Below, piece by piece: positions 23,716-25,949 of a stretch of 64,000 bases of DNA. Position 1 is the first letter of the stretch, and each line of letters begins with the position of its first letter. The position numbers and the translations under genes were made by a program. The DNA lies in contig NZ_JAJJMP010000001.1 in the NCBI RefSeq assembly GCF_020905415.1, positions 1,021,501 to 1,085,500 of the forward strand, given 5' to 3'. The notes under the pieces were generated by a model. That model saw only the letters and a program-made list of their open reading frames with translations, did not search any database and had not been told where the DNA came from. This stretch comes from Myroides oncorhynchi. GTDB taxonomy: Bacteria; Bacteroidota; Bacteroidia; Flavobacteriales; Flavobacteriaceae.

Positions 23716-23783
23716 TGATAGGCTTATTAATAGCACTTTTCAGCCGACCACATGCCTATCAACAGCCGACCATAAGCCGACCA
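23716..23783. repeat. AGCCGACCA triple repeat with an 8-bp inverted repeat
   Basis: AGCCGACCA occurs three times, at 23742-23750, 23764-23772 and 23775-23783. The first copy lies inside an inverted repeat TGATAGGC (23716-23723) / GCCTATCA (23754-23761). This is unusual in such AT-rich surroundings and may be a multi-site operator or a structured RNA. Confidence 0.55.
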
Positions 23784-23907: not shown

Positions 23908-23955
23908 TTCTTAATGTAGGTTAATCAATTAGAATAATACCTCACCTTAACTTTG
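23908..23955 (+). promoter_or_regulatory. candidate regulated promoter of the lactate-oxidase-like gene (shared 17-bp motif)
   Basis: TTCTTAATGTAGGTTAA (23908-23924), 23 bp, then the -7 box TAACTTTG (23948-23955). The same motif with the same 23-bp spacing to a TAnnTTTG box precedes yceI at 25294-25341. The motif lies where the -33 element should be and no TTG is present there, suggesting activator or alternative sigma recognition. Confidence 0.65.
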
Positions 23956-23984
23956 TCCTATCAAAAATTACAAATATCAAGAAT

Positions 23985-25220
23985 ATGAAAAAGACAATAG
24001 TAACATTGATTGCAATAACACTTATAACTAGTGCATTTGCTCACACAACAGAAACAGAAACAATCCTACAAGACAAAGAAAAAAAAGAGCAAGGTTATCG
24101 AGCTAGTACAGCTAATAAAAAATTAAAGATTGTCAACTTACACGAATTAGAAGGTCAGGTGAAGGTTGAGATGGATAAAGGGGCATTCGGATATATCGTA
24201 GGAGGTTCTGAAGACCAAAATAATCTAAAGATTAATACTGAGAACTTCGATAAGAAGTACATCATGCCACGCGTGCTAAAAGGAATTAAACATGAGGACA
24301 TAGACCTATCAACAAGTTTATTTGGAATTCCATTAAAGACACCTATTATACAAGCTCCTATGGCTGCTCAAGGGCTATCTCATGTAGATGGTGAAGTAGC
24401 TACAGCTAAAGGAATGATAGCAGCGGGATCTCTATTCTCACTGAGTACTTATGGCAACAAGACGATAGAAGAAGTAGCTGAGGGAATCGACGGAGCACCT
24501 TTCTTCTTTCAGTTATACATGAGTAAAAATGATGATTTTAATAAGTTTACACTTGAAAGAGCAAAAAAACACGGAGCTAAAGCTATCATCTTAACAGTAG
24601 ATTCACCTGTAGGAGGATATAGAGAAGAAGACATCAAAACAGGATTCACATTTCCACTAGTGATGGGTAACTTAGAGTTATTTGCAGCCCAACAAACAGA
24701 TGGAAATAAAACTGGAAAAGGAGCTGGTATAACAGAAATATATGCACAAGCTAAGCAAGACTTTAAACCATCTGATATCAAGTATGTAAAAGATATGACA
24801 GGATTACCTGTTATCATTAAGGGAATACAGTCACCTGAAGATGCTGAGATAGCAATTCAAGCAGGAGCAGATGCAATATGGGTATCTAATCATGGCGGTA
24901 GACAACTAGATGCAGGTCCATCTTCATTTGATGTACTTCCATTGGTAGCAAAAACAGTCAACAAACGCGTGCCTATTATCTTTGACAGTGGTGTTAGACG
25001 AGGATCTCATATCTTTAAAGCATTAGCTAGTGGAGCTGATATCGTAGCGATAGGTCGTCCTTTACTATATGCACTACACCTAGGAGGTAGTCAAGGGGTG
25101 ACGTCTGTGATCGATCAGTTAAATAAGGAATTGACCATCAATATGTTCTTAGGAGGAGCTAAAAACATAAAAGAAATTCAAAATACGAAACTATACACAG
25201 ATAAAGATTTTCAATTATAA
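23985..25220 (+). CDS. exported FMN-dependent alpha-hydroxy-acid oxidase (lactate oxidase/dehydrogenase family)
   Basis: A 411-residue TIM-barrel flavoprotein that should oxidise L-lactate or a related alpha-hydroxy acid. Family motifs are APMAAQGLSHVDGE, FFFQLYMSK, LTVDSPVGGYREED, PVIIKGIQSPEDA with Lys279, the active-site signature SNHGGRQLD (301-309) and FDSGVRRGSHIFKALASGAD. Unlike the usual cytoplasmic members it starts with a Sec-type signal (about 1-20, ending SAFAHTTE) and a ~30-residue linker. Export implies FMN must be loaded outside the cytoplasm. Whether oxygen or a quinone accepts the electrons is unknown. It shares a promoter motif with the following yceI gene. Confidence 0.85.
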   Translation: MKKTIVTLIAITLITSAFAHTTETETILQDKEKKEQGYRASTANKKLKIVNLHELEGQVKVEMDKGAFGYIVGGSEDQNNLKINTENFDKKYIMPRVLKGIKHEDIDLSTSLFGIPLKTPIIQAPMAAQGLSHVDGEVATAKGMIAAGSLFSLSTYGNKTIEEVAEGIDGAPFFFQLYMSKNDDFNKFTLERAKKHGAKAIILTVDSPVGGYREEDIKTGFTFPLVMGNLELFAAQQTDGNKTGKGAGITEIYAQAKQDFKPSDIKYVKDMTGLPVIIKGIQSPEDAEIAIQAGADAIWVSNHGGRQLDAGPSSFDVLPLVAKTVNKRVPIIFDSGVRRGSHIFKALASGADIVAIGRPLLYALHLGGSQGVTSVIDQLNKELTINMFLGGAKNIKEIQNTKLYTDKDFQL

Positions 25221-25293
25221 AAAAACAGTTATCCTACTATTAAACAGAGGATTATGATTAATGAAAAACCACAATTACACAAGATAAAAATAC

Positions 25294-25341
25294 TTCTTAA
25301 TGTAGGTTAAGTGCTTAAAGCTAAATGTGGAACTAAATTTG
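25294..25341 (+). promoter_or_regulatory. candidate regulated promoter of yceI (shared 17-bp motif)
   Basis: TTCTTAATGTAGGTTAA (25294-25310), 23 bp, then TAAATTTG (25334-25341), the same layout as ahead of the lactate-oxidase-like gene. Upstream, both also share ACAAGA with an A-rich spacer. The motif ends 63 bp before the yceI ATG, against 60 bp in the other gene. Confidence 0.65.
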
Positions 25342-25373: not shown

Positions 25374-25949
25374 ATGAAAAAAATAGCATTATTATTCGTA
25401 GCAACATTATTCTCTGTTGCATCATTCGCCCAAACAAAATGGAATGTAGATAACTACCACTCATTTTTAAACTTCTCTGTGAAGCACTTAGGAATTTCTT
25501 TTGTAGATGGTCGTTTTGATAAATACGAGGGAACATTCGAAGGAACACCTGAAGACTTAACGAAAGGAACATTTAAATTCTCAGTAGATATGAACAGTGT
25601 GAACTCATCTATCGAGATGCGTGATAACCACTTAAAAACAAATGATTTCTTTAATACAGAGAAATTCCCTGCAATGACTTTTGAAAGTACTTCAATTAAA
25701 AAAACAGGTAAAGACCAATATAAATTAGAAGGTAACTTAACAATAAGAGATATCACTAAGAAAGTAACTTTTGATCTTACTTACGGTGGTTTATTAAAAG
25801 ATGATGGCCAAGGTAATACTAAACTTGGATTCCAAGCAAGTACTACTATCAACCGTTTTGACTTTGGAGTAGCATACGATCCATCAGGACAAGCTATCGC
25901 TAAAGACGTTAAGATTAATGTAAACCTAGAGTTTAACAAGGCTAAATAA
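25374..25949 (+). CDS. YceI family periplasmic lipid-binding protein
   Basis: A 191-residue protein starting at ATG 25374 (MKKIALLFVATLFSVASFAQ signal in two runs); the frame is open further upstream but that part holds the promoter. The mature domain is a YceI lipocalin-like barrel: WNVDNYHSFLNFSVKHLGIS, VDGRFDKYEGTFEG, DLTKGTFKFSVDMNSV, KTNDFFNTEKFPAMTFEST, GNLTIRDITKKVTFDLTY and FDFGVAYDPSG. YceI proteins bind polyisoprenoids or other amphiphiles and respond to stress in several bacteria. It probably shares regulation with the upstream flavoenzyme. Confidence 0.93.
   Translation: MKKIALLFVATLFSVASFAQTKWNVDNYHSFLNFSVKHLGISFVDGRFDKYEGTFEGTPEDLTKGTFKFSVDMNSVNSSIEMRDNHLKTNDFFNTEKFPAMTFESTSIKKTGKDQYKLEGNLTIRDITKKVTFDLTYGGLLKDDGQGNTKLGFQASTTINRFDFGVAYDPSGQAIAKDVKINVNLEFNKAK

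Follow-up and report, generated by a model that had tools for sequence, protein, structure and literature searches.

Why should two neighbouring genes for exported proteins carry the same 17 letters at the same distance from their promoters? The question is raised by a 64,000-nucleotide stretch of the Myroides oncorhynchi genome (assembly GCF_020905415.1, contig NZ_JAJJMP010000001.1, positions 1,021,501 to 1,085,500 of the forward strand), referred to here as the window, in which the 17-mer TTCTTAATGTAGGTTAA precedes a gene for an L-lactate-oxidase-like protein and, further on, a yceI gene. The two boxes quite probably represent a conserved promoter element, palindromic in its genus consensus (TTAAT-N4-ATTAA), that is likely to be bound by a single activator of the CRP/FNR family. 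The features concerned are listed below, in coordinates of the window.

23908..23924, + strand: putative regulator box 1, TTCTTAATGTAGGTTAA, an imperfect copy of the genus palindrome CTTAATCTAGATTAAG, predicted to span -52 to -36
23948..23955, + strand: sigma-A type -7 box TAACTTTG, 23 base pairs (bp) after box 1, at -12 to -5 by the spacing given in PMC9723704
23985..25220, + strand: flavin mononucleotide (FMN)-dependent, L-lactate-oxidase-like protein of 411 residues, exported (N-terminus judged by eye)
25294..25310, + strand: putative regulator box 2, 17 letters identical to box 1, followed by GTG
25334..25341, + strand: sigma-A type -7 box TAAATTTG, 23 bp after box 2
25374..25949, + strand: YceI-family protein of 191 residues, exported (N-terminus judged by eye)

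Two promoters and a genus-wide element

The gaps between box and -7 box (23925-23947 and 25311-25333) are 23 bp long in both cases, and the boxes end 60 and 63 bp ahead of the ATG codons at 23985 and 25374. Letters, spacing and distances agree with the original prediction, as does the lack of a TTG at the expected -33 position of either window promoter. The flanks of the two copies are unlike each other, so they do not belong to a duplicated stretch, and the 17-mer has no further exact copy in the window or in the whole 4.16 Mb genome. The proposed gene identities, an exported lactate-oxidase-like protein and YceI, also hold. The product of 23985-25220 matches FMN_dh (1.9e-112; TIGR02708 at 404.7 bits, under the cut-off of 645.5) and has L-lactate oxidases as its closest solved relatives, and the product of 25374-25949 matches YceI (1.1e-47).

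Taken by itself, the 17-mer is unenriched in the genome (54 matches with up to 3 mismatches versus 73 in the reversed control). The genome scan suggested by the original prediction, for the motif, a 23-bp gap and TAnnTTTG, was run as TTCTTAAnnTAnnTTAA-N23-TAnnTTTG and returned 4 exact matches versus 0.0015 expected from base composition; it is the combination of box and -7 box at this distance that stands out, rather than the box alone. The 4 mismatch-free sites head the FMN_dh gene, the exported yceI, a second yceI for a cytosolic protein (1922461) and a pirin gene (site 1690210, minus strand). Sites with 2 mismatches head another pirin gene (657789), an NADPH-dependent FMN reductase gene (2468222) and a gene for an Omp85-type protein (1555054); pirin and FMN reductase also belong to a box-led cluster in relatives. 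Two further 2-mismatch matches were assigned to chance, the one at 1184598 having no TAnnTTTG and the one at 1648295 no start with at least 60 codons in the 360 bp scanned. A one-mismatch box at 464442 (L003) was rejected as a site without a -7 box; it sits within a longer inverted repeat, GCCGACTTAATCTAGAT...CTAGGTTAAGTCGGC.

The pattern CTTAATnTAGRTTAA-N{8,38}-TAnnTTTG was run on 199 genomes of the same genus, that of M. oncorhynchi included, and matched in 101 of them, with 2 matches in total in the reversed control. Among the 150 matches listed, the gap was 23 in 142 and 22 in 5, with one match each at 27, 11 and 10. When the strict box was searched in an order-wide draw, it was found in 18 of 26 same-genus genomes and in 1 of 270 others (gap 20); the lone match outside the genus is taken as chance because 2 reversed-control matches arose too. 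Within the genomes drawn, the strict form is restricted to this genus. Most often the element reads TTCTTAATCTAG(G/A)TTAA, in most cases with G as the next letter. If the variable place holds A, a perfect palindrome of 16 letters results, CTTAATCTAGATTAAG (TTAAT-N4-ATTAA), and the mirrored reading TTCTTAACCTACATTAAG also occurs. Among 62 extracted sites, G stands at -35 in 54 (with G at -33 in 47 of those 54) and at -13 in 52; these sites were picked by pattern match, which partly builds in their invariance, and the gap test is free of that effect.

CRP/FNR proteins bind palindromes made of two half-sites of 5 bases each, and in class II activation the site is centred near -41.5 and adjoins the -35 region. 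PMC9723704 describes TAnnTTTG as the sigma-A -7 box of flavobacteria, spanning -12 to -5. With start sites taken from that spacing, the centre of the palindrome falls at about -42.5, where, on this predicted numbering, a class II activator of the CRP/FNR type would sit.

The element is also kept where its surroundings are not. Between M. odoratimimus (L187) and M. oncorhynchi, most of the 400 bp ahead of the FMN_dh gene has changed, and TTCTTAATcTAtaTTAA and TAACTTTGTCCTAT are kept. Box 1 is retained in altered form in three further Myroides-type loci (L186, L187 and L289), and box 2 in L187, L186 (gap 22), L111 and genome G146. Myroides sp. N17-2 (L186) has both sites with TCTAG, and G146 (L289) has the same site pair with a gap of 23 at both. 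The FMN_dh box of L187 and G146 reads TTCTTAATCTATATTAA, its second half being nearer to the dehalobox, the site of the regulator CprK, than that of the window copy. In G018 (L111), box and yceI stand shortly after a gene that starts like the window's 514-residue gene (22025), with no oxidase gene between.

A candidate CRP/FNR-type regulator

Twenty loci chosen around box matches were fetched, and in 12 of them a CRP/FNR-type gene in the same direction lies upstream of the box, with its end no more than 150 bp away; one of the 12, L104, has the variant box TTCTTAATCCAGATTAA. In L108, genes judged by eye to be transposase-like lie between the CRP/FNR gene and the box. Gene and box also occur together across the 199 genomes. 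With a box counted at any gap of 8-38, both are present in 99 genomes, the gene only in 37, the box only in 2 and neither in 61 (P 1.5e-22 for all genomes and 1e-14 for those of at least 3.0 Mb, shared ancestry being ignored). By hand count, genomes of at least 3.0 Mb carry the box in 87 of 108 cases with the gene versus 0 of 25 without it. One of the box-only genomes, G145, has a partial gene about 160 bp upstream of its box (C138:2338-2691).

A yceI relative is present in 28 of the 61 genomes with neither gene nor box, which allowed a control at 30 loci. Ten loci were dropped, no start having been found by the script (the remote relatives L249-L255, the second copy L256, L238 and L242), and none of the other 20 yceI genes has the box ahead of it, the best matches (5-7 mismatches) being about those of shuffled DNA. 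L238, read by eye, has no box, and when all 30 loci were scanned on both strands with a looser pattern, the single match was at a pirin gene of G155. An element of the form TTCTTGTCC(T/C)AGTTCAA was seen before yceI in L244 and L239, with a similar one in L297 (G033, G141 and G024, all without the regulator); it lies about 22 bp before a box resembling nAAnTTTG and is perhaps a diverged box for another regulator.

The orthologue of M. oncorhynchi itself (1703137-1703697) has a GTG start and is 53% identical to the G005 protein. It follows an aminotransferase gene, and in L095, L096, L099, L110, L112 and L113 this gene and the regulator are also no more than about 3.5 kb apart. The GTG start, noted at L115, L151 and L133-L135, is apparently shared by several relatives, and an open reading frame scan limited to ATG cut the regulator to about 112 residues in L115, L108, L110 and L112. 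The predicted fold shows the features of the CRP/FNR family, a cNMP-type beta barrel, a long dimer helix and a C-terminal winged helix-turn-helix. A profile built from 51 sequences among the 120 listed of 3639 relatives (alignment A4) found 3dn7 at E 3.1e-49, FNR chains at about 6e-6 and CRP chains at about 2e-5, and none of the 45 PDB sequences in this search bore the name CprK; Pfam cNMP_binding reached 25.5 bits on the orthologue, under its 27.5 cut-off. A CRP-like gene about 4 kb from one of the pirin genes of this genome (L126) was considered as the regulator and rejected as no orthologue, its product being 30% identical to the pirin-linked proteins.

FNR carries an N-terminal cysteine cluster for [4Fe-4S], and residues 1-40 of the M. 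oncorhynchi orthologue (P0001) contain no cysteine. In the alignment, Glu occupies the place of FNR Glu209 and, unlike in FNR, Lys replaces the Arg that follows Ser. The step to T in TTAAT is tied in CprK to Val192, at the FNR Glu209 position (PMC2610375). The candidate regulator has Glu there instead, so by that test it is not CprK and must recognise TTAAT differently.

Target genes and the origin of the oxidase gene

Pirin genes are the commonest target, standing behind 30 of the 62 distinct sites in the loci at hand. A further 20 sites precede yceI genes for cytosolic and 4 those for exported proteins, 3 a glyoxalase-family gene, 2 an alpha/beta hydrolase gene, 1 the FMN_dh gene and 2 other genes. 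Sequence words served to sort the targets, with examples checked by Pfam, and the exported yceI of the window was counted despite its truncated locus. In several loci, the pirin-led clusters continue with genes for GNAT and OsmC proteins and for an FMN reductase, as read by eye and, for examples, with Pfam. The letter after TTAA is G in all 53 classified pirin and yceI sites and T or C in those of the FMN_dh, glyoxalase-family and hydrolase genes, which divides the sites into two classes. Second-class sites, TTCTTAATCTAGRTTAA(T/C)CGAT, were seen ahead of the alpha/beta hydrolase gene in L101 and L102 (G006 and G015, contig C4), and also ahead of a glyoxalase-family gene in one cluster (L101, L094). 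They possibly reflect another CRP/FNR paralogue or a split regulon.

The proposed mechanism is as follows. One CRP/FNR activator would bind the palindrome 23 bp ahead of the sigma-A type -7 box and recruit RNA polymerase from about -42 at promoters without a TTG -33 element. The candidate is the pirin-linked CRP/FNR protein, with the element as its predicted class II site. Given the targets pirin, OsmC, flavin reductase, glyoxalase-family enzyme and YceI, the inducing signal would be redox, quinone or other electrophile stress.

The lactate-oxidase-like gene is rare in the genus, being found in 2 of the 199 genomes (E 1e-60). Its product is 92-93% identical to proteins of M. odoratimimus and Myroides sp. 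N17-2. The 11 loci from a pattern scan of named genomes include 2 from Myroides and 7 at 71-76% identity, mostly from Pseudochrobactrum, a member of another phylum; the record of one relative is labelled Bacillus subtilis and is suspected to be mislabelled. The oxidase gene directly follows another yceI in Pseudochrobactrum (L188) and Salmonella (L194), as confirmed with Pfam, and does not do so in Streptococcus (L195). The first two records support the link of the exported oxidase-like gene with YceI that the original prediction suggested. The gene was likely acquired by horizontal transfer, as judged from these comparisons. In Myroides it probably arrived beside yceI and would have joined the regulon by way of its own box.

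Ahead of box 1, GCCGACCA occurs three times in the intergenic positions 23742-23783 of the window; related letters near L025 perhaps mark a dispersed genome repeat.

Alternative readings and comparison with known systems

Several observations weigh against an element read throughout by the pirin-linked activator. Judged from the alignment, the Glu at the CprK Val192 place weighs most against the assignment of the regulator. The strict box is missing in 37 of the 136 gene-bearing genomes, 5 of which have a looser one; in G167 a box at a contig edge goes with no regulator match; and G155 is without the gene at E 1e-50, yet carries TTCTTAATCTAGGTCAA at gap 23 before pirin. Both window copies are imperfect palindromes (TTAAT...GTTAA), and a gap of 22 occurs at the yceI of L186 as well as in the 5 matches listed above. 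The orthologue of M. oncorhynchi is unlinked to any target and is 1 of 20 CRP/FNR-family matches in its genome. At up to 2 mismatches, the composite has 9 matches there versus 5 in the reversed control, so that the weaker targets are less sure and other support is needed for them. To judge by the letters, a different regulator may act at the FMN_dh, glyoxalase-family and hydrolase sites, and one of the paralogues that stand beside similar boxes could be the real binder here.

The alternative that survives best, and is still rather improbable, is that one or more other CRP/FNR paralogues of overlapping taste bind the boxes, the pirin-adjacent gene not being the sole or main regulator, above all for FMN_dh. 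The many family members, the unlinked orthologue and the two letter classes favour it, as does a Glu that predicts no A:T step under the CprK rule. Paralogues are found ahead of similar boxes in G033, G024, G141, G145 and G155. In the first four, other CRP/FNR genes are followed by TTCTTAACCATGATTAAG, TTCTTAAACTGCTTTAAG, TTCTTAATCGCGGTTAAG and TTCTTAAGATACCTTAAG (L290, L292, L293 and L294), each with a gap of 22 to an nAnnTTTG box and with the common form TTCTTAA-N6-TTAAG; the distance from gene to box is about 380 bp in L293 and at most about 25 bp in the other three. The G155 protein is 36% identical to the M. oncorhynchi orthologue, and its gene ends 236 bp upstream of the box. No gap-22 box directly follows the CRP/FNR gene in L291, L295, L296, L297, L299, L300 or L301, out of 12 paralogue loci, the CRP/FNR frame itself being absent from the script output for L296, L297, L299 and L300.

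The helices of the four paralogues read PEFLSK (G033), PEFLSM (G024), PEFLSK (G141) and PEFLSY (G145). A fifth, in L298, has PETLSR, with the FNR-like Arg, and is followed by the FNR-like site TTGATCTATGTCAA and a gene that looks SDR-like by eye. The five cases give hints of a recognition code in which the absence of Arg would go with TTAA and its presence with TTGA. These paralogue boxes strengthen the case for a CRP/FNR binder and weaken the certainty on which paralogue it is. The pirin-linked gene is favoured by its position, at most 150 bp ahead of the box in 12 of 20 loci, by co-occurrence with the box, also among genomes of at least 3.0 Mb (a test that covered only this gene among the CRP/FNR paralogues), and by the central letters of the four gap-22 boxes, which differ from TCTAG(A/G).

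A wider proposal, less likely than the binding of the element by one CRP/FNR activator and put forward here as tentative, is that the Flavobacteriia hold a family of such activators, each encoded before a target with its own dehalobox-like box (gap 22-23). The pirin/YceI member would run a genus-wide redox or electrophile defence regulon, reading TTAAT by the Lys at the FNR Arg place and not by the Val of CprK, and in Myroides would have drafted a foreign exported oxidase through a box that is the same as that of the neighbouring yceI.

Less probable than other paralogues is that the CRP/FNR protein acts as a repressor, blocking the promoters until the signal releases it. Regulator and targets by themselves are compatible with either sign of regulation, and several electrophile regulons in other bacteria are run by repressors; a palindrome centred at about -42.5 and the missing TTG -33 better suit class II activation. 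The original prediction left open a small regulon under either a specific activator or an alternative sigma factor. Conserved box, spacing and the CRP/FNR link support the former, and it is very unlikely that the element is the upstream part of an extracytoplasmic function (ECF)-type promoter. Such a promoter would agree with the fixed spacing and the missing TTG -33, and 2 of the 20 loci have a divergent ECF-type sigma gene next to the regulator, L097 (4404-5003; Pfam) and L103 (13792-14394; word search). Against it, the word search gave none in the remaining 18 loci, and the box downstream, TAnnTTTG, is that of sigma-A (PMC9723704). The upstream element, moreover, has two-fold symmetry, being a palindrome of about 16 bp at the predicted class II place that is used in its mirrored reading too. 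Chance or a dispersed repeat, for which only the unenriched 17-mer at 3 mismatches speaks, is practically dismissed by the excess of the composite, the spacing fixed across the genus with a near-empty control, and the unlike flanks.

The reading of the boxes as sites of one CRP/FNR activator goes beyond the original prediction, which did not foresee the palindrome, the CRP/FNR regulator, pirin as commonest target or the conservation across the genus. To our knowledge, it is uncommon for a flavobacterial regulon to have its regulator, site and target list all named, and no report on the present one was found in the open-access literature searched. Site, candidate regulator and target set are jointly testable here. 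If the reading is true, the poorly understood pirin and YceI proteins would be tied to one common signal, and the promoters would be a clean case of CRP/FNR action on a Bacteroidota promoter without a TTG -33. They would also illustrate how a gene that was probably acquired became connected to a host regulon, and the paralogues would form a set for learning the recognition code.

Among known systems, MhqR and QsrR of Firmicutes control quinone and electrophile regulons. Their targets are similar (a glyoxalase-family enzyme, a hydrolase and a flavin reductase), whereas their regulators belong to a different family; the MhqD-like hydrolase scored 25.8 bits versus a cut-off of 325, so such names are loose. 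Class II activation by CRP/FNR proteins is matched in the two-fold palindrome, in the predicted fold of the candidate regulator and in a site predicted at about -42.5 beside a -7/-10 element, but the promoter here is of the Bacteroidota sigma-A type, with TAnnTTTG and no TTG -33. The FNR site is TTGAT-N4-ATCAA, from which the present box differs by A:T for G:C in either half-site. CprK of Desulfitobacterium takes o-chlorophenol as its ligand and has dehalogenase targets. Its dehalobox is TTAAT-N4-ATTAA (PMC3638464, PMC2610375), one position away from the FNR consensus (PMC2610375). The genus consensus TTAATCTAGATTAA is identical to the dehalobox letter by letter, and the window copies have GTTAA as their second half; the targets, unlike those of CprK, are pirin and YceI genes.
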